DNA of 64,000 nt, taken from a virus. The notes beneath the pieces are model-generated. The model was given only the letters and a program-made list of their open reading frames with translations, did no database searches and was not told the DNA's origin. Below are positions 3,340 through 35,051 of this stretch, piece by piece. The stretch spans positions 1-64,000 of the IMG/VR virus record IMGVR_UViG_3300014494_000005; one strand, given 5' to 3'. Within the stretch, counting starts at the first letter, position 1. Each line of letters begins with the position of its first letter. Position numbers and translations under genes: made by a program.

Positions 3340-4611
3340 ATGTTAAAATTATACAAATATAAACTAAAACCGGATAATAACCAAATTATTTTATTAAATA
3401 AACATTTTGGCTGTATTAGATTTATTTATAATTATTTTCTCAATGAACGTAAAAAAGAATATGAAACTAATAATCAAACACTTAATTATTATGATAATAC
3501 AAAAGCATTAACCGAATTAAAGCATTCAAATGAATATATTTGGCTTAATGAAATTTGTGCACAATCTTTACAACAGTCTCTTAAACATCTTGATGGAGCA
3601 TATAATGGATTTTTTAAAGGTAGGACAAAGTTTCCAAATTTTAAATCTAAACACAATAAAAATAGTTTTTGCGTTCCTCAAGCAGTAAAATTAATTAATA
3701 ATAAACTATATATACGTAAATTTAAAGGAGGAATTGGTGTTATTATTGATAGGAAATTTAAGGGAATTATAAAACAATGCACAATAACCAAAACACCAAC
3801 TAATGAATATTTTGTTAGTATTTTAGTTGAAACCGAACATGTTAAATTACCTAAAACTAATAAAAGTATTGGAATAGATTTGGGATTAAAAGATTTTGCA
3901 ATAACATCAGAAGGATTTAAATATAAAAACAATAAATATACTAAACAATATGAAAAGAAATTAAAAAAAGCACAACAACATTTATCAAAAAAAACAAAAA
4001 ATTCGAAAAAATTTGAACAACAAAGATTGAAAGTGGTTAAAATATACAAGAAGATAACCAATTCTCGTGTAGATAATCTACATAAAGTAAGTACTGACCT
4101 AATTAAAAAATATGACATAATTTGTTTAGAAGACCTTAATATTAAAGGTATGTCAACAAGATGCAAGCCAAAACAAGACAAAAATGGTAAGTATTTATCC
4201 AATGGTCAATCAGCAAAATCAGGACTTAATAAATCTATATCAAATGCTAGTTGGGGTACTTTTGTTGAAATGCTTAATTATAAAGCCAATTGGAATGATA
4301 AACAAATTGTTAAAATTAATAGATTTTATCCTTCAAGTAAAACATGTCATATTTGTGGCTATATAAATCAAGACTTAAATCTTTCTATTAGAGAATGGAA
4401 GTGTCCTAAATGTGGTATTGTTCATGATAGGGATATAAATGCTGCAAAAAACATATTAAAAGAAGGTCAGAAAATATTACTTAATGATTTAACAAATAAT
4501 ATTGACAATAACAAATCGTCAGGGACTGACGATAACAGACGTGGAGACCAAATAAGACCTGTTATAACGGGCACAATCGATGAAACGTCCAAAATTCTTA
4601 GCATAAGTTAA
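3340..4611 (+). CDS. tnpB: TnpB RNA-guided nuclease (IS605 OrfB family)
   Basis: 423 residues, normal for TnpB. The N-terminal helix-turn-helix region starts YKYKLKPDN. The split RuvC active site is complete: GIDLG (Asp about residue 182), LEDLN (Glu about 267), and HDRDINAA near residue 365. A four-cysteine zinc ribbon (CHICG and CPKCG) lies between the last two motifs. Members of this family are omega-RNA-guided DNA nucleases whose guide RNA comes from the right end of the element, overlapping the 3' end of the gene. The C-terminal coding part contains the NRRGDQIRP segment seen where coding sequence and guide scaffold overlap. It runs against all neighbouring genes, consistent with insertion. 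Confidence 0.9.
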   Translation: MLKLYKYKLKPDNNQIILLNKHFGCIRFIYNYFLNERKKEYETNNQTLNYYDNTKALTELKHSNEYIWLNEICAQSLQQSLKHLDGAYNGFFKGRTKFPNFKSKHNKNSFCVPQAVKLINNKLYIRKFKGGIGVIIDRKFKGIIKQCTITKTPTNEYFVSILVETEHVKLPKTNKSIGIDLGLKDFAITSEGFKYKNNKYTKQYEKKLKKAQQHLSKKTKNSKKFEQQRLKVVKIYKKITNSRVDNLHKVSTDLIKKYDIICLEDLNIKGMSTRCKPKQDKNGKYLSNGQSAKSGLNKSISNASWGTFVEMLNYKANWNDKQIVKINRFYPSSKTCHICGYINQDLNLSIREWKCPKCGIVHDRDINAAKNILKEGQKILLNDLTNNIDNNKSSGTDDNRRGDQIRPVITGTIDETSKILSIS

Positions 4612-10860: not shown

Positions 10861-11454
10861 TCATTTTATATAATTACTTTGATAAAATTCGATTGCTTTT
10901 TTTATTGTTTCATTATGATTAAATGCCCAATTAAGTTTTTTATCATATTTACAATAAAAATCTGAAATTGATATCCATTGAGCTAATTTTGTTTCATTAT
11001 TTGAATAATTTTCAACATAAATTGGAAGTCTTTCAAGATGTTCATGAAAATCATATACTGAAAGATATATAAATGAAACATTTTGGCGATGATTGCCCGG
11101 ATTATCTCTGATTTCTATAGGTTTTTCATTATTATTTGTGATTAGTAAGTCATTATAATCTGGAAGATATAAACTGGTTTCTTCATATACTTCTCTTATC
11201 ATTGATTCAAAAATATTTTCATTAAAGTCAACATAACCATACGGTAAGCAATATTTATTTTTTTCATCACGCATTTTATTTGACCTTTGGGTAATAAGTA
11301 CATGCATTCCACCAACTAATGGAATAATTAATACAACTCCAACTGTTGCAATAGACCTACTTATCCAATAATCAAGATTTATAATACCTTGATTTGATTT
11401 ATGTTTAATTATTAGATGTTCATTAGGAACATTATTAAATATAGGCTTATTCAT
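10861..11454 (-). CDS. Nudix hydrolase
   Basis: 197 residues. The Nudix box is complete at about residues 73-95 (GYVDFNE, then REVYEETS), giving the GX5EX7REUXEE pattern that binds Mg2+. The enzyme cleaves nucleoside diphosphates linked to another group; the substrate (oxidised nucleotide, NAD, capped RNA or ADP-ribose) cannot be told. It is followed downstream by the 55-residue gene. Confidence 0.8.
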   Translation of the reverse strand: MNKPIFNNVPNEHLIIKHKSNQGIINLDYWISRSIATVGVVLIIPLVGGMHVLITQRSNKMRDEKNKYCLPYGYVDFNENIFESMIREVYEETSLYLPDYNDLLITNNNEKPIEIRDNPGNHRQNVSFIYLSVYDFHEHLERLPIYVENYSNNETKLAQWISISDFYCKYDKKLNWAFNHNETIKKAIEFYQSNYIK

Positions 11455-14060: not shown

Positions 14061-14648
14061 TTATTCTTTAATATATTTATCAATAAATGATTGAGAAACT
14101 TGTGGAAATCTTGATTTATCATAAATCGATTTATAATGTTGTCTTAAAACAGATAATTTTATATCAGTTCTTATCCATTTATTAAGTTCATATAGGGTTT
14201 CTGCATATGAATTTTCAAAAACCTGTATGGTTTCCATTTTCCAATCACGTTTATTTTCCGGATTATTTAAAATATCTTTTAAATATTTAAAAGCAATATA
14301 TAATATATTAGTTTGAGATATTGGTTTGGTTTTATATTTTTCCCATTCATTACTACATGAATTACAATGGTTTATTTCACGTGTATTTATTATCATAATA
14401 CCTTTGATATTAATAAAACTTATTTTAATATTAATATTGCCAGTATTTTGAACACAAACAATTCGATTTATAATATTTTTTCTACTTTTACATATTGGAC
14501 ACTGACCATCATGAAAAAGTTTATTATCTTGCTGTTCTTCAATTTCTTTACGTGCAATAACATCACATTTCTTCAAAACAATTTCTTTATTATTCTGAAG
14601 AAATGCTTTTTGTGTTTTATTAGGTAAATTTAAAATTTTACGTATCAT
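14061..14648 (-). CDS. Zinc-binding hypothetical protein, 195 aa
   Basis: Two cysteine pairs, CPICKSRK near residue 51 and CNSCSNEW near residue 98, form a likely zinc ribbon in the first half. The second half is helical. No named family is recognised; nucleic-acid binding is plausible. It ends just before the 124-residue gene and starts 1 nt after the PTH2-like gene's stop. Confidence 0.55.
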   Translation of the reverse strand: MIRKILNLPNKTQKAFLQNNKEIVLKKCDVIARKEIEEQQDNKLFHDGQCPICKSRKNIINRIVCVQNTGNINIKISFINIKGIMIINTREINHCNSCSNEWEKYKTKPISQTNILYIAFKYLKDILNNPENKRDWKMETIQVFENSYAETLYELNKWIRTDIKLSVLRQHYKSIYDKSRFPQVSQSFIDKYIKE

Positions 14649-14649
14649 A

Positions 14650-15219
14650 TCATGCTAGTTTTTTATCTCTAATTAATTCACGTAAGAATACGTTCTTAAT
14701 CCCACCAATGAAGCGTACCCATTCTTTATAATATTCTGGAAACATTTCTTGTAGTTTTTCCATGCTTTGTGTTTTAAGCATAATTATATTTTCTGCAGGT
14801 GCTGCTTCTTTTGCTTCGGGATACATTTTAATATCAAGAATATAATCCACAAAATCTGGATAATCTTTTCTGTTAAATACTCGTTCATCTACGATAAAAC
14901 ACAATGCAGTAAGTGCATCATTAAGGTCTGGTTCTTGAAAATAAGAAAATTGTATATCGTTTTGTTGTAAATCATCAGCAATTTGATTTAAACTACCCAT
15001 AACAATACCTTCAATATCTCTACGTTCATTTGTAGTACCACCATTTAAGATAATCCAAGTTTTCCAATTTCTTACAAAAATGATAAATTCTTCATCACTC
15101 CCATATTTATTAGCATATTCAAGTGCTGCATGACCACATTGTATACCAGCCTGAATACCAGTAAGTTGGTAAATTGTGAAGAAATACATTTTATATTCAA
15201 GTAATTTTTCTTCTTCCAT
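14650..15219 (-). CDS. PTH2-like peptidyl-tRNA hydrolase family protein
   Basis: 189 residues. The GIQAGIQCGHAALEYA segment (about 17-32) matches the Q-C-x-H-A-A helix of PTH2 proteins. A WIILNGGTT strand follows, then EPDLNDALTALCF, equivalent to the family's D-x-G/T-R-T region. PTH2 enzymes release peptides from peptidyl-tRNA; phage homologues are not characterised as far as I know. It is part of the tRNA-related gene set in this region. Confidence 0.6.
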   Translation of the reverse strand: MEEEKLLEYKMYFFTIYQLTGIQAGIQCGHAALEYANKYGSDEEFIIFVRNWKTWIILNGGTTNERRDIEGIVMGSLNQIADDLQQNDIQFSYFQEPDLNDALTALCFIVDERVFNRKDYPDFVDYILDIKMYPEAKEAAPAENIIMLKTQSMEKLQEMFPEYYKEWVRFIGGIKNVFLRELIRDKKLA

Positions 15220-15945: not shown

Positions 15946-17871
15946 TTACAATTTTTTTAAATTTAAAAAATGTTGAACTTTTTCATCATATGAATAAATT
16001 AATTTATCATTAATTTCTTTTTGTATTAAATTTAATCCATTTTCATTACATAATTGTAAAAAATTGACAATTGAAATATCATTATTATCAATACAATGTT
16101 TTACAATTATTTTATATAAAGTAATGTGTTTATTTAATAAATCTCTTGCTCTTTTCTTTTCTTCACCTAATATATTTTCAATAATATCATTAGTTTTTTC
16201 AACATCATAATTTGATTCGTAATATGTATCTACTTCTTTTTTTAATATATTAGAAATAGTTCCATCCATAGCATAATGTCTAACATATCTTGCTGCAATA
16301 TCTGTTGCATTTATAATATCAGCAAATGCACCAGTAGATTTAAATTCCTCACCAAAAACCATTTCTTCGGCAATAAAACCAGCTAATAATATTGCTATTT
16401 GATTTCTTAAAAATGTTCTATTATCAATTGATTCATGTTCGATAATAAAACCTTTACTAAAACCAGCAGCATTGATATTTATTTGTTTTGGCGGTGTATC
16501 AAATAGTAAACAATAAAGTATAGCATGTCCAATTTCATGTATAATATATAATATTCTTTCATCAACAGATTTATTTTTATGAATATTGTCAATTTCTAAA
16601 ACAATTTCTTTTTCATATATTTTTTTATTAATATTTACAAATAAATTATTATTTTCATATTCAATATATAACTCATTAACGTTTTCACAAAAAGCATTAT
16701 ATATAAAATACGGTAAATTACTTCCAAGTATATTAAATACTGTTGAAATTGCTGGTCTTACACCTTGTGTTGGAAAAACACCATTTCTATATATTATATC
16801 ATATATATCATTAGATAATTTAATATCTATATTATGCTCATTTTTTACTTTATCAAGAATTTTTTGACAATTCATTTTAATGATTGTATAATATGATTTT
16901 TTATCTAAACATGGATATATTACATGATTATTTCCAAAACGAGCAATTTGTTCTGGTTTAAATTGATGTGATAATGCTTGTTTAATATTAATAATATTAA
17001 CTCTTTTTGATAATTCATGATATACATCAGCATCAGTATCGCTATCATCAACTTCATCCGACATTTTGAATGCACTATCTAAGTTTCCAGAAATAAAAAT
17101 TAAAAGTTTTTCATATGATTTACCTTCATTAATATTATCAGCTTTTAAACTATTTTGAACCAGAAATATTCTTTCTTCTGCATCCATTTCCATTATTTCT
17201 TCAATAGTATTATTTAAATTAAGAGTTTTCTTTATTCTACTTGCTGTCCAATGTGAGGTTTTAAATCTACGTTTTTTTAAAACTTTAATTTTATTAGATT
17301 GTTCATCTTTTTTTGATTCAATATCTTTTGGTTCTTCCTCATTATCTCTTGCATCAAGCCAATACATTTCATCAAAAAGCATTTCCATAATTTGAACTTT
17401 ACGTTCAGAATTATTTTGAAACCTACCATCTGAAAGTAATGTCCAAACATCATTAAAATACTTGTTTTCAAGCATTTTTCCGTTTTCATCTAAAGTACGA
17501 TAACGTTGAATTTCATCGAGTAATAATACTGCAGGTTCTTTTGTATCAATACCACCACTTTCTAAAAAACTTTCAATGTTTTTCATGTAATCGTTTTTCA
17601 TATCCATTTGAATTTCAATGAACTTATCAGTAAATTTTAATAAGCTCACAAGAGTTCTAACTAAATCAGTTTTACCAACACCAGTTATACCCCATAATGA
17701 AATTATAAGTGGTCTGAATTGAATATTTGGCATTAAATACCAGAGGGAAATATAATCGATTATTTTGTCAATAACATTATCGATTCCAATAAATTTTTCT
17801 TTTAATTTTATTTTAATTTCTTCGAGTTTTTCTCTTTTCTCTTTGATTTGATTAAAAAAATCTTTATTCAT
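15946..17871 (-). CDS. Clp-like AAA+ ATPase fused to M41 metallopeptidase
   Basis: 641 residues. The N-terminal half is a Clp/HslU-type AAA+ module: Walker A GITGVGKT (61-68), Walker B LLLDE (about 116-120), then a small helical domain with GVRPA, equivalent to the sensor-2 region of ClpB/ClpX. The C-terminal 200 residues are an FtsH-type M41 peptidase: HEIGH (445-449) for zinc and a distal STGAFADIINATDIA segment holding the likely third ligand, Asp about 518. No transmembrane helix is present, unlike FtsH. It probably unfolds and degrades cytosolic proteins. A promoter at 17893-17900 forces the start at MNKDFF. Confidence 0.8.
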   Translation of the reverse strand: MNKDFFNQIKEKREKLEEIKIKLKEKFIGIDNVIDKIIDYISLWYLMPNIQFRPLIISLWGITGVGKTDLVRTLVSLLKFTDKFIEIQMDMKNDYMKNIESFLESGGIDTKEPAVLLLDEIQRYRTLDENGKMLENKYFNDVWTLLSDGRFQNNSERKVQIMEMLFDEMYWLDARDNEEEPKDIESKKDEQSNKIKVLKKRRFKTSHWTASRIKKTLNLNNTIEEIMEMDAEERIFLVQNSLKADNINEGKSYEKLLIFISGNLDSAFKMSDEVDDSDTDADVYHELSKRVNIINIKQALSHQFKPEQIARFGNNHVIYPCLDKKSYYTIIKMNCQKILDKVKNEHNIDIKLSNDIYDIIYRNGVFPTQGVRPAISTVFNILGSNLPYFIYNAFCENVNELYIEYENNNLFVNINKKIYEKEIVLEIDNIHKNKSVDERILYIIHEIGHAILYCLLFDTPPKQININAAGFSKGFIIEHESIDNRTFLRNQIAILLAGFIAEEMVFGEEFKSTGAFADIINATDIAARYVRHYAMDGTISNILKKEVDTYYESNYDVEKTNDIIENILGEEKKRARDLLNKHITLYKIIVKHCIDNNDISIVNFLQLCNENGLNLIQKEINDKLIYSYDEKVQHFLNLKKL

Positions 17872-17892
17872 ATATATAATATTTTTAATTGT

Positions 17893-17900
17893 CAAATATA
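17893..17900 (-). promoter_or_regulatory. Host-type promoter (TATATTTG)
   Basis: TATATTTG with TTG exactly 20 nt upstream (17921-17923). It overlaps a longer possible start of the protease gene, so translation must begin at the downstream ATG at 17871. Confidence 0.7.
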
Positions 17901-19337: not shown

Positions 19338-20174
19338 TTATTCCATATCTGGAATTAAATTATATAAAAATTCCATATCTTGAGTAAAAATTGGACATTC
19401 AGTACTTACCCAACGACTACGAATTGCTACTGCACTATTCAATTTATCTCTATCAGGTTCAATTTCAAATTCCTGTTTAATAATAAGTCTACCTCTTTTT
19501 AACTTAGGTGCATAGTCATTCCAATTAATACCCTTTTGAAATATCATTTCTTGTTGTTCGTTTGAACTTTTATTTTCCAGTTCTTTGTGACTGTAAAGAC
19601 TTTGGGCAACACTTGAAATACTATTTCTTACACAATCTTTTTGTCGCCAAACTATCATGTTAGCAACTTCAGTTTTTGAAGGAATTGTAAATACACGAGC
19701 ATCAAATTCAGCAAACTTAATTCCTTTAATTAGTATTTCACTAAATACCGCACCGTTTTGCAGTGAAGTAGGAAAGTATGAAGTATCAGGGCAAGCATTT
19801 TCAGTAACGTATCTTTTTAATCTTGCCATGTTAAATGCATTTGTTGCCATACTTGCAGCAACACTTGTCATTTTCTGTATATTACCATCAAACCAAGCAT
19901 CTGTAGCAATATCATCAAAATCAGTCAATAATATACTAATTTCATCTGACTGTACAAATGCAAATTTAGCACCTTGTATATTTTTACAAAGATAACAAGC
20001 GGTTTCATCCATATCATAAATTAAACCATCATCAAAAGGTCTTATTAATCCACGACAAAATTGTGAAAAACATCGACCATCAATACGAATTATAGTATAG
20101 GTTCTACGAGGAAGACTTATACGAGTTCTATCCTCATAATATTTTTTCATTCTATCACCAAGTGCGTCTTTCAT
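19338..20174 (-). CDS. Thg1-like 3'-5' RNA polymerase (tRNA guanylyltransferase family)
   Basis: 278 residues from the ATG at 20174, chosen because it follows the usual A/T-rich leader 10 nt after the stop of the radical SAM gene; a longer frame would overlap that gene by 59 nt. The metal-binding aspartates of Thg1 are present in IIRIDGRCF (Asp 32) and in QSDEISILL, followed by the AWFDGNIQKMTS and ASMATNAFN segments of the family. Thg1-like proteins add nucleotides to RNA 5' ends in the 3'-5' direction, either G-1 of tRNAHis or in repair of 5'-truncated tRNAs. Its neighbours suggest repair. Confidence 0.87.
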   Translation of the reverse strand: MKDALGDRMKKYYEDRTRISLPRRTYTIIRIDGRCFSQFCRGLIRPFDDGLIYDMDETACYLCKNIQGAKFAFVQSDEISILLTDFDDIATDAWFDGNIQKMTSVAASMATNAFNMARLKRYVTENACPDTSYFPTSLQNGAVFSEILIKGIKFAEFDARVFTIPSKTEVANMIVWRQKDCVRNSISSVAQSLYSHKELENKSSNEQQEMIFQKGINWNDYAPKLKRGRLIIKQEFEIEPDRDKLNSAVAIRSRWVSTECPIFTQDMEFLYNLIPDME

Positions 20175-20184
20175 TATTTTTATT

Positions 20185-21003
20185 TTATTTCCAATTCCAC
20201 AAATAGTCTCTTTTTTCATCATCTTGATGAAAGCCATCATCATATATTCTGTATTTATTAGCTTTTATTTTAGGCGAATCAATTTTTTTTAATTCTTCTA
20301 AATTATCTTCAGATACATCATCAATTTGTATATCAGATTTTTTTGATTTTAATGGTAATGCACCACCGCATTTTTTACATGCCCAATCAATTTGATATTG
20401 ATATTTACTTAAATCATATTTCCACCAATCTGGATGGTCATAAATATTAATACCGTCAACACCATTGAATAAATATGATAACATGCCAGCAACTTCACAA
20501 AAGAATGCACCTTTAGGATTTATTGTTGCTGACCATTCATTTTGAATCCAACATTTGTCAATACATTTATTAATTGTATCTTGACTTATATTATATTTAT
20601 TTTTTATTGATTCTGATGATGTTAATAATGGTGTATGTTTTGATATAAAATCACCAGTATGTTCATTAATAATAATATTATTTGTTATAAAATAATTACC
20701 AGCATATTTCATACAATCCTTATTATTTGTCCATAAACCTCTTTTATCATATGCTCTATATTTTTTAAAAAGTTCTAATATTTGTGGAAATTGTGGATGT
20801 AATAGTGGTTCACCACCCATAATACCAACAGTGCCTTGAAAATCTTTTAAGGTAATTAAAATATCTTCAATATATTTTAAATCCATAAAATATATTCTTT
20901 CTTTTGTGTAATGTCCACAAAATCTGGTACAATTACAACAAGATTTGTTGCATAAATTTGTAACATCAATTTGGATAATCCACATGTCTTTAATTTGTCT
21001 CAT
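20185..21003 (-). CDS. Radical SAM protein
   Basis: 272 residues. CX3CX2C is present (Cys 18, 22, 25; NLCNKSCCNC) for a [4Fe-4S] cluster, followed by the GGEPLLHPQF strand that contacts SAM. A later CKKCGG pair and scattered cysteines may bind an auxiliary cluster or zinc. The substrate is unknown; its place between a Thg1-like polymerase and an RNA ligase makes an RNA-modification or RNA-repair role plausible. It is tightly spaced with both neighbours. Confidence 0.8.
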   Translation of the reverse strand: MRQIKDMWIIQIDVTNLCNKSCCNCTRFCGHYTKERIYFMDLKYIEDILITLKDFQGTVGIMGGEPLLHPQFPQILELFKKYRAYDKRGLWTNNKDCMKYAGNYFITNNIIINEHTGDFISKHTPLLTSSESIKNKYNISQDTINKCIDKCWIQNEWSATINPKGAFFCEVAGMLSYLFNGVDGINIYDHPDWWKYDLSKYQYQIDWACKKCGGALPLKSKKSDIQIDDVSEDNLEELKKIDSPKIKANKYRIYDDGFHQDDEKRDYLWNWK

Positions 21004-21015
21004 TTGTTTTAATAT

Positions 21016-22059
21016 TTATTCTTTATTATCAATTAAAAACTTATTTGAAATTGCTTTAAAGCTAAGTCTACCCTGATTTTTAAGTTCATGCTTTACAAAT
21101 ACTACTCCTTCTCTTTCAATTAAAGGATTTAATACACTTTTATTTTGTGCATAAGCAAGTATTTCATCAACACTATTTGGAAGTACATAATTCCAATCCA
21201 ATATGGGAACGGTTTCTAACTTAAATTGATTAACTATAATATCAACCATTTCTTCATAAGGTAAGAATTCATATTTGTCAATATCAAACATACGAAAAAA
21301 TTTAATTGTTTGACCCTTTAACTTATATCTATTCTTTTGAATACCTTCACCAATAATTTCACCTTGTAATCCAAGATTTCTTCCAAGTTCACCAAGTTTT
21401 TTTTCAAGATAATTTTGTCTTGCGAATTTCCAAAATGAATTAGTTGAACTTTCATAAAATTCATAATTTCTACTACAAACACCAAATTCACCATTTTTCC
21501 AATAAAACGAACCACTGCTACCATCAAGTTTTTCTGTCGTTATAAACATCTGACCAACATATTCTATTGGTATATGCGGAAGTATTTGAATACGGTCTTC
21601 ATCAGTTATTATCATAAATGAAGGAAATCCACCCTTTGCATCACCTGCAAGTTCAGCAGGAATTGGTGCTTCATATTTAGTGATACCAAGTTCTTCAGTA
21701 ACATCAAGACCTATAGGACTAATAGCATTTTCATGTAATATAAGTTCCGATTTATCCAATTCATTAATATGCCATTGAAGTTCAATAGGAAGAATATCCA
21801 ATGGAAAACAAATGCCCTGCGAAATCTGTCCACGAAATTTACAGGTTCTAATACGAAATTTGTCTTTTCTTAAAAATTCAAATTCTGAACGTTCAGATAA
21901 TAATGAATCTATTTCACAATAAACACATAATTCTCCTACATGAAATTCATCTTTCTTTACAACTACTTTCCAACCCAATACTTGTGCAACTTCAATTGCA
22001 TCAGCATCTGGAATTGGATTGATGGATAATATTTTTTGTATTGTTGCTAATTTTCTCAT
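21016..22059 (-). CDS. RNA ligase, DraRnl/Rnl5-like (DRB0094 family)
   Basis: 347 residues. An N-terminal OB-like domain of about 170 residues (starting with the family's LATIQKI and IEVAQVLGWKVVV segments) precedes the nucleotidyltransferase core. Motif I is KLDGSS (Lys 177); motif IV is EGVVFVK and motif V is KAISNKFL. This domain order, OB first, is that of the Deinococcus DraRnl family, which seals 3'-OH/5'-phosphate RNA nicks with ATP. Phage RNA ligases usually repair tRNAs cut by host nucleases. Confidence 0.85.
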   Translation of the reverse strand: MRKLATIQKILSINPIPDADAIEVAQVLGWKVVVKKDEFHVGELCVYCEIDSLLSERSEFEFLRKDKFRIRTCKFRGQISQGICFPLDILPIELQWHINELDKSELILHENAISPIGLDVTEELGITKYEAPIPAELAGDAKGGFPSFMIITDEDRIQILPHIPIEYVGQMFITTEKLDGSSGSFYWKNGEFGVCSRNYEFYESSTNSFWKFARQNYLEKKLGELGRNLGLQGEIIGEGIQKNRYKLKGQTIKFFRMFDIDKYEFLPYEEMVDIIVNQFKLETVPILDWNYVLPNSVDEILAYAQNKSVLNPLIEREGVVFVKHELKNQGRLSFKAISNKFLIDNKE

Positions 22060-22094
22060 AATTTTTATTTAAAACCAGTTCATTTATCTACTGG

Positions 22095-22102
22095 CAAAGT
22101 TA
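22095..22102 (-). promoter_or_regulatory. Host-type -7 box (TAACTTTG)
   Basis: TAACTTTG on the minus strand, 35 nt before the RNA ligase ATG. No good TTG is seen 18-22 nt upstream, so it is weaker than the others. It would drive the ligase, radical SAM and Thg1 genes. Confidence 0.5.
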
Positions 22103-22206
22103 GGTTTAGTCGATAACTTTCCTTTATGTGGAGAACGTTTTTATTTTTTCCAGAGGCATATTATTCCACCCATCCATTGGCTTTGCCTAATTCCAACTCG
22201 TCTTCG

Positions 22207-22312
22207 AGCGCAGAATGAGATTCGAACTCATACTATGGGCAATTAATTCAAGTGCACTTTTGCCGAGACCATACATTTGTATATGTGCCTTACCAATTGA
22301 GACTATCTACGC
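22207..22312 (-). tRNA. tRNA-like element, 106 nt, abnormal anticodon loop
   Basis: Read on the minus strand: acceptor stem GCGTAGA pairs with TCTGCGC over 7 bp (one G-U). The D-arm has a 4-bp stem (GTCT/AGGC) and a GG-containing loop. The T-arm is ATGAG-TTCGAAT-CTCAT. These are sound tRNA features, but the middle arm (CATAT, loop ACAAAT, GTATG) has a 6-nt loop without the expected U33, and about 38 nt with its own GGCAA/TTGCC hairpin replace the variable loop. No CCA is encoded. Either a decayed or interrupted tRNA, or a specialised tRNA mimic. The identity cannot be read. Confidence 0.45.
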
Positions 22313-22336
22313 TTATGGGATTGCTCCCACAAATAT

Positions 22337-26262: not shown

Positions 26263-27420
26263 TTAATCAATACCTTTATCAGAATAACTTGAAAATTGTT
26301 TGGGAATACCAATGCATGAACCAATTGCTGTTGCATCTACAGTAATTAATTTACCACCACCAATACCAGTAACTGGAACTTTATCTGGAACTTGGTCAAG
26401 ACAAGTAACTACAACATTTTTTCGAGATTTTGGATTATTATAATTGTCACAATCAAATGCATATCTTAATAATCCAATATCAAGTATTGATTTTCTGAAT
26501 ACACCTTGCCATCCATCATTTACGTTGGTTTCTAATGGATTATCCTTAATATAACTAATGTCCATGCCTTCATTTGTCATCGGACCATTTCCATGACGAG
26601 TCTGATATGCACGTGTTATATAGTATGTATCGACATTTCTTTCATTAATTGTAATTCCAAGTTTGTTTATGATTTCAATTGCATTTTTGCTTGTTGTATT
26701 GCTTCGTGTAACATGTGGAAAAAATCCATAATCCATATCAAGCATGATGCCTTGACCACCTTCAAAAATTAAGTCAAAATAATCAGTAGGTATTGATGAA
26801 CCAAGTAAGTATATATCATATATTGTATTTACAATATCAAATCTACTTACAAGGTCATCACATGCTAATTTAAAATCATCAATTATTTTTTGAGTTTTGG
26901 AATTGGCAAGACTAATATATTCATAATATTTTTCTTGTAAAAGTTTGAGTTTAATATCACGAATTTTTGGATATTGTAAATCTCTGGCATATAAATGAAA
27001 AAAATCTTCATTTCTTTTAATTGTTGTACCAAAACCAACGCCAACAGTACCATGAAGATTAAGACTATCAAGTTTAATATTTTTCAAAATATCAAAAGGT
27101 GTTGTTATCATTGCATTTGCATTAATAAATAATTGAGGATGAATTTCCATTTTTCTCAATGCATTGCCTTCTTTTAGTATTCCCACAGGATTTACAGTAC
27201 AATATTCTGACCAATATGTTGGTGCGCCTAATAGTGTACCCGAACCAAAATTTGAGAATACATGTCTTTTATCATCAATAACTACTGTATGTCCGCATTG
27301 ATGCCCGCCATTGAATCTTATAACTAATGGATTATTGGATTTACTACAAAGATAATTTACAAATGCACCCTTGCCTTCATCTCCAAACAAAAATCCTAAA
27401 CAAATTGATATTGAATTCAT
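26263..27420 (-). CDS. purA: Adenylosuccinate synthetase-like protein
   Basis: 385 residues. The P-loop GDEGKG (13-18) keeps the catalytic aspartate (Asp 14), and the GHQCGHTVV segment keeps the second catalytic residue, His 44. FGTTIKRNED and ITRAYQTRHGNGP correspond to the IMP and GTP contact regions. The enzyme joins IMP and aspartate on the way to AMP. The asparagine normally in GGxNAGHT is glutamine here. Phage PurZ enzymes for 2-aminoadenine DNA lack the P-loop aspartate, so by that marker this is PurA-like. It probably boosts adenine nucleotides for an AT-rich genome. Confidence 0.85.
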   Translation of the reverse strand: MNSISICLGFLFGDEGKGAFVNYLCSKSNNPLVIRFNGGHQCGHTVVIDDKRHVFSNFGSGTLLGAPTYWSEYCTVNPVGILKEGNALRKMEIHPQLFINANAMITTPFDILKNIKLDSLNLHGTVGVGFGTTIKRNEDFFHLYARDLQYPKIRDIKLKLLQEKYYEYISLANSKTQKIIDDFKLACDDLVSRFDIVNTIYDIYLLGSSIPTDYFDLIFEGGQGIMLDMDYGFFPHVTRSNTTSKNAIEIINKLGITINERNVDTYYITRAYQTRHGNGPMTNEGMDISYIKDNPLETNVNDGWQGVFRKSILDIGLLRYAFDCDNYNNPKSRKNVVVTCLDQVPDKVPVTGIGGGKLITVDATAIGSCIGIPKQFSSYSDKGID

Positions 27421-30457: not shown

Positions 30458-31045
30458 TTAAAATGTTTTATGTATAAAAAATCTTTTTATTCTATAACAA
30501 ATATTAGGGGTTAAACCCGAATAATTATCGGTTTGAAAAAAGTTGAATTGTTGATTTAGAAGCATATCACTATCATCATCAATTATAGCAAAACGATAAA
30601 AATCATAATAATGAATACCAAACCATTTCATACAATTTTCTTTTAACCAAAGTGATATTTCAGTTCCTCTTTCAAATCCAGTATGCTTTGTTTTATCAAT
30701 AATAGTAAATGTTGCACCACAATATTTAAAAATTTCTTGAAGTCTTTCAAGGGTATGTCCATTTCTCATTGAAGCCGACAATACTACAGCAGAATTAGTT
30801 TCTTTACAAAGATTATTTAATAAATCTATGCGCATAGGACAAATTTCATTTTTATAATAATCTAATTTTGAAATTTCATTTGCTTTTAACATTTTGCGTA
30901 AATATTTCTTAACTGTTTTATAAAAAGGTATACCATCATATTGAGTTAAATGTTTATATCTCTCAGTATAAAACAATTGACAATTAAGTACCCCATCTAT
31001 ATCAAGAAAAATTATTGAATTATATTTATTAAGTTCCGCTTCCAT
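30458..31045 (-). CDS. HAD-like protein, RNA-repair-associated (HAD_SAK) type
   Basis: 195 residues from the ATG at 31045; an in-frame TTG one codon upstream is not preferred. The HAD nucleophile motif is FLDIDGVLN near the N-terminus, VVLSASMR gives motif II, and FAIIDDDSDM the C-terminal acidic motif. This spacing matches the HAD domains found in 'Swiss-army-knife' RNA repair proteins. A 3'- or 5'-phosphatase role in RNA end healing is plausible. A second protein of this type is at 34590-35051. Confidence 0.7.
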   Translation of the reverse strand: MEAELNKYNSIIFLDIDGVLNCQLFYTERYKHLTQYDGIPFYKTVKKYLRKMLKANEISKLDYYKNEICPMRIDLLNNLCKETNSAVVLSASMRNGHTLERLQEIFKYCGATFTIIDKTKHTGFERGTEISLWLKENCMKWFGIHYYDFYRFAIIDDDSDMLLNQQFNFFQTDNYSGLTPNICYRIKRFFIHKTF

Positions 31046-31259
31046 CAATTAATTCATCTACTTCTTCAAAAGTTTTTACTGTAACTTCACCACAATAATT
31101 TTCAAATAATGATTTTATATCTTTCCGAAAAACTTCAAGTTCTTCTTGATTATCAAAATAAAAATCATGTTGTAATTTCCATCGAACATCGTTTATACCA
31201 ATAGTTGGGTCTCCTTTAGATAAAACATGAAATCCACTAACTTTAATTATATTAATCAT
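31029..31259 (-). CDS. Hypothetical protein, 76 aa
   Basis: Starts MINIIKVSGF; soluble, with an alternating strand-helix pattern. It is the first gene of the minus-strand run that starts at the divergent region 31260-31425 and overlaps the HAD gene by 17 nt. Function unknown. Confidence 0.55.
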   Translation of the reverse strand: MINIIKVSGFHVLSKGDPTIGINDVRWKLQHDFYFDNQEELEVFRKDIKSLFENYCGEVTVKTFEEVDELIDGSGT

Positions 31260-33616: not shown

Positions 33617-34603
33617 ATGGATACAATACAAACATTTGAAAAAGAAATTATTGAATTATCGAAAATTAAATCGCAAAAAGAAATTGCATTACTATATAAC
33701 AGTACTCAGCCAAAAATTAGTAATATTTTAAGGAAAAATAAAATTATAAATAAAAAGAGTAGATTAAATATGAGTCATCTTGCACTTAATATTGACTATT
33801 TTAAAGAAATTAATTCTAATGATAAAGCATATTGGCTTGGATTTATATGTGCTGATGGTAATATTAAAAAAACAAACAATAAGGTTAGTTTAATATCTAA
33901 AGATTTAGAAGTAATTGTAGGATTTAAAGAAGCAATTGGCGCAGAACATAAAATTAGTAAAAGGGAAATTTTTGATAAACGAACAAATAAAACATATACT
34001 GGATATAGTATTCAGATTGGCAATGAAATATTTACCCAGCATTTAATTAATTTAGGTATTACTAATAATAAAACAAATGTATTGGAATTTCCAAATATTG
34101 AAGAGAAATACTATTCATATTTTATTGCTGGATTATTTGATGGTGATGGGTCAATTTCATTGAAAGGGATAAATAAAAATAGATTAGTAATTAATTTAAT
34201 TTCTACAAATGAAATGTTATTATATATTAAAGAATATATTTTAAATAAATTAAATATTAAACCAAAATATTGTTGTGATGTTAGTAAAAATAAACAAAAT
34301 GTTTGGAAAATGTATTTGTATTCAGATGCACATAGATTTTTAAAATTTATATATTGTGATGCTAATTTCAAATATTATTTAAAAAGAAAATATAATATAT
34401 TTCTAAAAAATATTAATTATCGAAATAATATTCGTCATTTAAAAAAAGTAATACAATGTGATAAAAATATGAATATAATTAAAATATGGAATACAATTAG
34501 AGAAGCAAGTATTGAAATGAATTGTCACGAAAACACGTTAAATTATAATATAAAGAAAGAAAGATTATTTAAAAATTATCATTGGAAACATGAAAATGAA
34601 TAA
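33617..34603 (+). CDS. LAGLIDADG homing endonuclease with NUMOD-type tail
   Basis: 328 residues. An N-terminal helix-turn-helix (QKEIALLYNSTQPKISNIL) precedes two LAGLIDADG motifs, YWLGFICADGNI and YFIAGLFDGDGSI, whose acidic residues form the active site. A C-terminal NUMOD-like DNA-binding segment (CDKNMNIIKIWNTIREAS) follows. It is free-standing, with no split gene evident on either side. The stop overlaps the HAD gene start by 14 nt. Confidence 0.88.
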   Translation: MDTIQTFEKEIIELSKIKSQKEIALLYNSTQPKISNILRKNKIINKKSRLNMSHLALNIDYFKEINSNDKAYWLGFICADGNIKKTNNKVSLISKDLEVIVGFKEAIGAEHKISKREIFDKRTNKTYTGYSIQIGNEIFTQHLINLGITNNKTNVLEFPNIEEKYYSYFIAGLFDGDGSISLKGINKNRLVINLISTNEMLLYIKEYILNKLNIKPKYCCDVSKNKQNVWKMYLYSDAHRFLKFIYCDANFKYYLKRKYNIFLKNINYRNNIRHLKKVIQCDKNMNIIKIWNTIREASIEMNCHENTLNYNIKKERLFKNYHWKHENE

Positions 34604-35051
34604 TAATGTGGTTTTATTTTTAGATTTAGATGGTGTTATGTGTACCACCACTCAATATTATACTAATAAAGATAAATGGAATTCCGAATATCATCGTTAT
34701 AAATTCGATGAAAAATGCGTGAAAGTGTTTAATCAAATTATTGAAAAAACAAAACCAATTATTATATTGTCAAGCGATTGGAAAGATAGTTATACTATTG
34801 AACAACTTAATCGTATTTTTGAAATAAATAAGGTCGATGTAAAAATTTTTGATATTACACCGCAATTATGGGGTATTAAATATTTTAAATTAACTGAATT
34901 AGAAGAATGTCGTGCAAATGAAATATTAAAATATGTTGAAGGCCATAAGATAAAAAAATTTATTGCAATTGATGACCTTGATTTATCGAAATGGCTTCCT
35001 AACAATTTCATTAGAACACCAATGGCAAATGAAGGTATTAAAACAAAGTAA
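34590..35051 (+). CDS. HAD-like protein, RNA-repair-associated (HAD_SAK) type, second copy
   Basis: 153 residues. FLDLDGVMC is the nucleophile motif, PIIILSSDWK motif II, and FIAIDDLDLS the acidic motif, in the same order and spacing as the protein at 30458-31045. The ATG at 34590 or the one 6 nt later may be used. Likely a phosphatase acting on RNA ends or nucleotides; inferred from family only. Confidence 0.68.
   Translation: MKMNNNVVLFLDLDGVMCTTTQYYTNKDKWNSEYHRYKFDEKCVKVFNQIIEKTKPIIILSSDWKDSYTIEQLNRIFEINKVDVKIFDITPQLWGIKYFKLTELEECRANEILKYVEGHKIKKFIAIDDLDLSKWLPNNFIRTPMANEGIKTK

Follow-up and report, generated by a model that had tools for sequence, protein, structure and literature searches.

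Why should a phage keep a tRNA-like element ahead of genes for an RNA ligase and a Thg1-like 3'-5' polymerase? The question is raised by the first 64 kb (here, the window) of the 348,923-bp virus record IMGVR_UViG_3300014494_000005 (G000), from a giant phage known only from metagenomes, in which the ligase, a radical SAM protein and the polymerase are all encoded on the minus strand in the same direction with gaps of ~10 nt. We tentatively favour the answer that the locus is an RNA-repair cassette headed by a structured RNA of its own, the tRNA mimic of which would act in trans on repair, and we hold this reading with slightly less than even confidence. The gene identities, the predicted structure of the RNA and its linkage to RNA ligases are the firm parts of this answer, and the trans role of the tRNA mimic is its least certain step.

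The tRNA-like module (22207..22312, minus strand, 106 nt) lies 148 nt upstream of the ligase. A preliminary description of the locus had reported this element, and it is indeed present and conserved in relatives; its likeness to tRNA stands, but it is more than a tRNA-like element, since it is the start of a larger conserved RNA, forming the 5' part of a structured RNA of ~250 nt. The module has a perfect 7-bp acceptor stem (GCGTAGA/TCTGCGC) with T73 unpaired, a D-arm with GG in the D-loop, a T-arm (ATGAG-TTCGAAT-CTCAT) and a long variable arm with the palindrome GTGCAC, and it lacks a canonical anticodon arm. Over 16 homologous modules, 110 of 112 acceptor cells are paired (shuffled maximum, 99), and compensatory change was detected in the acceptor and in the T-stem, where 5/5 pairs show double changes; the D-arm was judged by eye only. 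A canonical anticodon arm (5-bp stem, 7-nt loop, U33) was found in none of the 16 modules versus 66 of 96 tRNA genes passed through the same filter, and these tRNA-like elements are unable to decode. The anticodon arm is apparently tetraloop-capped in several modules, and the GTGCAC palindrome often recurs in the variable arm, features that were mostly read by eye. Directly upstream of the module is a short hairpin seen in the sequence and predicted to pair (GTGGGA-GCAA-TCCCAT; 22315..22330, minus strand), with a similar counterpart, GTGGGAGCAATCCCAC, in L012.

Neither ARAGORN nor Rfam called a tRNA for the element in the window; its L011 counterpart scored 39.5 bits as RF00005, and Rfam searches of the scanned copies, at gathering thresholds and at E up to 10, returned no hits worth retaining other than tRNA-like ones. 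Several known RNA classes were considered and rejected: an ordinary tRNA gene (ARAGORN negative in the window, no canonical anticodon arm), an intron-containing tRNA (canonical anticodon arm missing at the expected place, with split-loop reconstruction by eye only), a tmRNA (no ARAGORN or Rfam call) and a T-box riboswitch (no match to the Rfam T-box model). A group I intron and RNase P RNA were dropped by eye, the expected motif order being missing.

The discriminator is followed by CGA and a conserved 3' domain of ~140-170 nt, which in the window, with CGA at its start, occupies 22065..22206 (minus strand). Here it comprises a P1 hairpin at about 22176-22197, a P2 helix pairing 22165-22169 with 22128-22132, a AAGGAAAGTT..ACTAAACCTAACTTT motif, and a final hairpin (CCAGT/ACTGG) with a T-rich tail; the last may be terminator-like, and no terminator was called at this hairpin in the window. 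A covariance model, R1, built from seven loci recovered the other loci, among them the window with 67.9 bits and an E value of about 1e-13. Across 18 phages, both partners have changed in 24 of the model's 29 pairs, and the covariation score reached 0.555, compared with 0.181 after shuffling and no more than 0.124 when the pairings were slid, in an alignment that was fitted to the structure and so favours it, the slid control nonetheless being clear. Eight relatives carry an extra 5' domain with an invariant, boxA-like GTTCTTTGAA at its start and TCTTTCTG/CAGAAAGA closing it. The non-coding stretch from the upstream gene to the ligase is likewise conserved in relatives, and a chance origin of the locus features is, on comparative grounds, excluded because they are conserved across many phages.

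Using gene-blind DNA patterns together with model R1, we found the structured RNA in 23 phage lineages. An ATP-dependent RNA ligase lies downstream on the same strand in 20 of them, at distances from 6 nt, in the window, to ~2 kb, with 17 nt in L111 and 10 nt in L126. The other three place the RNA inside a tRNA array (L110, L122 and G009/G050); in L110 it stands directly behind a normal tRNA-Ala, and in G009 KptA/Tpt1 and an Rnl1-family ligase lie 1.7 kb and 4.8 kb downstream of it within the array. The G009 region (L104:10462-15669), just downstream of a 3'-domain RNA, encodes consecutively a metallophosphoesterase, KptA/Tpt1, a DNA methylase-like protein, IF3 and the Rnl1-type ligase, and a possible further non-coding element, closed by a hairpin and bearing a T-run, lies at L110:72-175, flanked by two tRNA genes and upstream of the 3'-domain RNA. 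Two or three consecutive tRNA-like modules occur in L016, L023, L120 and L121. At L023:4163-5351, three anticodon-less modules (129-189 nt) and a tRNA-Ser precede the ligase without a 3' domain. Pattern matches in L116, L118 and L119 (three of four matches to genome contigs) were discarded as chance-like and unmatched by the model, and no cultured phage with the RNA was found by blastn in INPHARED.

The ligase gene itself (21016..22059, minus strand) starts 6 nt past the modelled RNA and encodes an ATP-dependent RNA ligase of the Rnl5/Naegleria type, with matches to the PHA02142 OB-fold (E=2e-35) and RNA_ligase (E=1e-21) families. It aligns over its whole length with the Naegleria gruberi RNA ligase (PDB 5cot, E=6e-67), with which it shares an N-terminal OB domain and the KLDGS nucleophile motif; the motifs KLDGS177, EGVVF317 and SFKAIS333 are present, as is the combination of OB and nucleotidyltransferase domains that Rnl5 requires. 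Ligases of this family seal 3'-OH/5'-P ends in duplex RNA, and Rnl-type ligases require a 5'-monophosphate. Membership of an Rtc operon was rejected, as the ligase belongs to the ATP-dependent nucleotidyltransferases and is not RtcB. Between ligase and polymerase lies the radical SAM gene (20185..21003, minus strand; Pfam E=3e-6, just below the curated cut-off, and PHROG radical SAM E=7e-6), which had been counted as part of the gene set. None of the relatives compared carries it, and it probably falls outside the conserved module because it is private to the window phage.

The polymerase was listed as the open reading frame 19338-20243 (minus strand; Pfam Thg1 E=3e-25, PHROG 4717 E=9e-79), and the true gene is probably 19338..20174, because homologues begin at M24. 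Products of polymerisation by Thg1-like proteins (TLPs) are expected to end in a 5'-triphosphate, and the acceptor and elbow are the requirement reported from TLP-tRNA structures. The window protein matches BtTLP from Bacillus (PDB 4kgk, E=2e-52) over its whole length and shares its TLP-type WRQ..NSIS motif; D55, D100 and E101 align to the metal/catalytic positions D30, D75 and E76 of BtTLP (PMC3701042), all three carboxylates being kept. TLPs are template-dependent and rebuild the 5' side of the acceptor stem with the 3' strand as template (PMC3701042). Unlike BtTLP, the window protein, whose activity is predicted, is phage-encoded and has an RNA ligase and a tRNA-mimic RNA as neighbours. A tRNA-His in the same record (L093:1014-1085), with an encoded G-1 and an A3-C70 acceptor mismatch, is a possible single 5'-editing target of the Thg1-like protein. 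The preliminary description thus held for the identities of the three genes, their co-directional arrangement and the intact catalytic residues of the polymerase, on the evidence of Pfam, PHROG and structure matches.

It had also suggested looking for conserved Thg1-ligase adjacency in other phages, and this adjacency is found. A protein search recovered 49 Thg1 loci. In the window's Thg1 clade, a ligase stands just upstream of Thg1 in 15 of 15 members, and the two genes are also adjacent outside the clade in L027, L030 and L035, and further in L077 and L117. A syntenic block is largely kept, running from adenylosuccinate synthetase through ATP-grasp, DNA ligase and small proteins to a slot followed by Thg1, a membrane protein, an AAA-M41 protein and a hydrolase-like protein. 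An ATP-dependent RNA ligase occupies the slot in every case, and three kinds occur: the Rnl5 type, as in the window, and two further RNA_ligase types that differ from it (KIHGT and KLHGT). The kind of ligase changes about five times on the Thg1 tree (parsimony, hand-counted), and the sister pairs L002/L010 and L008/L009 differ in ligase kind at well supported forks. Chance adjacency should be rare because background ligase density is low, at roughly one to four per 100-440 kb in these records. That one position has again and again received another protein with this activity is good comparative evidence of a functional link. At L077:4325-6114 and L115:3507-5654, the ligase genes are split or enlarged by apparent intein/homing-endonuclease insertion.

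In the mechanism that we favour, the RNA would be transcribed ahead of, and probably together with, the ligase and, in the window, the Thg1-like polymerase. tRNA-processing enzymes would free the tRNA mimic from the transcript, and it would be recognised via its acceptor and elbow, as a docking site, sensor or competitor acting on the repair enzymes or on the nucleases opposed to them. The ligase would seal 3'-OH/5'-P nicks in damaged tRNAs during infection, and the polymerase would restore missing 5' acceptor nucleotides, a repair separate from ligation. Both activities suit the mending of tRNAs harmed in the course of infection, which has been proposed before (PMC2904730, PMC7824862). It seems more likely that the two enzymes mend different lesions than that they act on one, because a TLP needs a template and its product is expected to bear a triphosphate.

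Several observations weigh against this proposal. The 20 loci with a linked ligase go back to a single ancestral neighbourhood and so are not 20 independent events; three lineages have no ligase within 3 kb of the RNA; the 3' domain occurs without a tRNA-like module in L108 and L113/L114; and the folding energy of the window RNA, taken as a single sequence, is unremarkable (z=-1.24). In several phages, the RNA lies only a few nucleotides before the ligase, which would suit a cis-acting leader too. Thg1 is not found at the RNA-ligase locus in L108, L111 (a 246-kb contig) or L115, an absence shown at the level of the locus, the relatives being nearly all metagenome contigs and often incomplete. 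Because of this absence, the comparative evidence makes the RNA-ligase link the older or stronger one relative to that with Thg1. The three-gene set of the preliminary description is accordingly reduced to a Thg1-ligase pairing in which Thg1 is not obligatory.

The main rival to a trans role is that the RNA is a cis-acting leader, in which the mimic, cut or bound, senses tRNA damage or an excess of repair enzyme and the final hairpin and T-rich tail form an attenuator or translational operator that switches expression of the ligase. We prefer the trans role, and sequence alone does not decide between them; the leader is a less probable but serious candidate. In 20 lineages the RNA always precedes the ligase in the same orientation; the distance from the last hairpin to the next start codon is mostly no more than about 30 nt, so that a separate promoter would have little space; and the boxA-like leader points to antitermination. 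Most ligase-linked copies have T runs behind the hairpin, unlike the two tRNA-array copies L110 and L113; however, T runs are common in this AT-rich genome, and no terminator is predicted at the hairpin of the window. Genes intervene between RNA and ligase in L006, L007, L009-L011, L108 and L117, the RNA is found in tRNA arrays too, where the next feature may be a tRNA (L113), and no alternative pairing was found.

It is possible, at a low probability, that the anticodon-less tRNA mimic is a dedicated substrate or cofactor of the RNA ligases and represents a new family of phage non-coding RNA. A role as ligase substrate is conceivable because cuts by tRNA-processing enzymes, leaving a 3'-OH on the leader and a 5'-P on the trailer, would make joinable ends. 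If so, the RNA might be excised, rejoined or circularised, or might tether ligase and Thg1 to damaged tRNA.

We consider it unlikely that the tRNA-like module is merely a processing signal or a relic of a tRNA array, cut by RNase P/RNase Z and without a role in repair. RNA ligases do occur in ordinary tRNA arrays (G000:248318 and L057), a normal tRNA-Ala occupies the same position in L110, and the D-arms resemble those of tRNA-Leu and the acceptors those of tRNA-Gly. Decay, however, would not keep 110/112 acceptor pairs with changing sequence while always losing the anticodon, nor would it keep a covarying 3' domain with CGA after the discriminator. The array in the window's own record (G000:C1:238000-268500; L093, L094) comprises ~30 tRNAs and a second RNA ligase at 248318-248755, and one of its members (L094:13887-13964), with a CTA anticodon and called as tRNA-Pyl, could read TAG.

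Slightly less probable still is the route put forward in the preliminary description, in which Thg1 adds nucleotides to the 5' end of a cut tRNA, the ligase seals it and HAD-SAK proteins prepare the ends, the tRNA-like element being incidental or a substrate. The conserved Thg1-ligase adjacency would suit it, as would two nearby HAD_SAK_2 phosphatase-like proteins of an RNA-repair family, 8-12 kb from the repair locus (30458..31048, minus strand, Pfam E=7e-19; 34590..35051, plus strand, E=2.5e-23), which had been correctly recognised. Extension followed by ligation is nevertheless chemically awkward: the expected 5'-triphosphate product would be unusable by Rnl ligases, TLPs need a base-paired template (PMC3701042) that anticodon loops do not offer, and Thg1 is dispensable at homologous loci. 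A Nudix protein encoded at 10861-11454 could in principle trim the triphosphate. Nor is the idea new, as had been thought, since a joint role of Thg1 and RNA ligase in RNA repair was proposed in 2010 (PMC2904730). It is most improbable that Thg1 serves only G-1 addition to tRNA-His or general 5' editing of phage tRNAs beside a coincidental ligase, for although the phage has >30 tRNA genes including tRNA-His, one tRNA-His with an A3-C70 mismatch among them, G-1 is already encoded before the C73 tRNA-His of G000 and one G005 copy, mismatches in the first three acceptor pairs are rare, and ligase adjacency was maintained through ligase replacement.

Around the locus, two further neighbours are conserved in relatives: a protein with Cys-pair motifs and no assigned function (14061..14648, minus strand) and a PHROG 'hydrolase' (14650..15219, minus strand), which had been called PTH2-like, an identity that is unconfirmed, with no Pfam PTH2 match in ten homologues. 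Also conserved beside it are an AAA ATPase domain fused to a peptidase M41 (FtsH-like) domain (15946-17895, minus strand) and a phage PurZ-related adenylosuccinate synthetase (26263-27420, minus strand; PHROG 1211, '2-aminooxy adenylosuccinate synthetase'); the latter may point to phage DNA with modified adenine. An IS605 OrfB/TnpB-like protein with a Cas12f1-like TNB domain is encoded at 3340-4611 (plus strand; Pfam E=2e-26). The host is probably a member of the Bacteroidota, because one related contig (L117) belongs to a Bacteroidota metagenome-assembled genome and the promoter words are Bacteroidota-like.

Phage RNA repair is usually described as a matter of enzymes alone, and in that respect the enzyme set reported here is a new member of the known jumbo-phage RNA-repair sets, for which Thg1, ATP-grasp ligases, HAD-SAK and PTH2 have been listed (PMC7824862). 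Like these and T4-type Pnkp/Rnl1 repair, it combines a phage ligase with end-healing proteins that would counter tRNA damage (no Pnkp was found among the genes tested in this analysis); unlike them, it includes a Thg1-like polymerase and a conserved, covarying tRNA-shaped RNA that was kept through exchange of the ligase. This RNA appears undescribed as far as literature and database searches reach. GOLLD, in which the 3' region is conserved and the 5' region variable and whose linker sometimes contains a tRNA (PMC12286853), and ROOL are large phage RNAs that also lie near tRNA arrays; the window-type RNA is shorter and linked to RNA ligases, and no copy scanned matched the GOLLD or ROOL Rfam models, at E up to 10 in part of the scans. 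The closest analogue of the whole arrangement, by comparison of its parts, is the Rsr-YrlA-Rtc operon, since the bacterial rtc RNA-repair operon also carries a tRNA-like non-coding RNA, the Y RNA YrlA, with an RNA ligase (PMC8394870). Identity with Y RNAs was rejected, there being no TROVE protein in the window phage and no Rfam Y RNA match; TROVE/Rsr was absent from G000 and from eight of nine other records searched, and a TROVE (Ro60-like) protein is encoded at G007:C1:14977-16032 in a 441-kb Thg1-bearing phage record. Unlike YrlA, the window RNA has a closed acceptor stem followed by a 3' domain, and its partner is an ATP-dependent ligase where the Rtc operon has RtcB. Should the RNA prove functional in the system, it would be a candidate substrate for phage Thg1-like enzymes of unexplained purpose, would add another class of phage RNA to GOLLD and ROOL, and would be to phages what the Y RNA of rtc operons is to bacteria.

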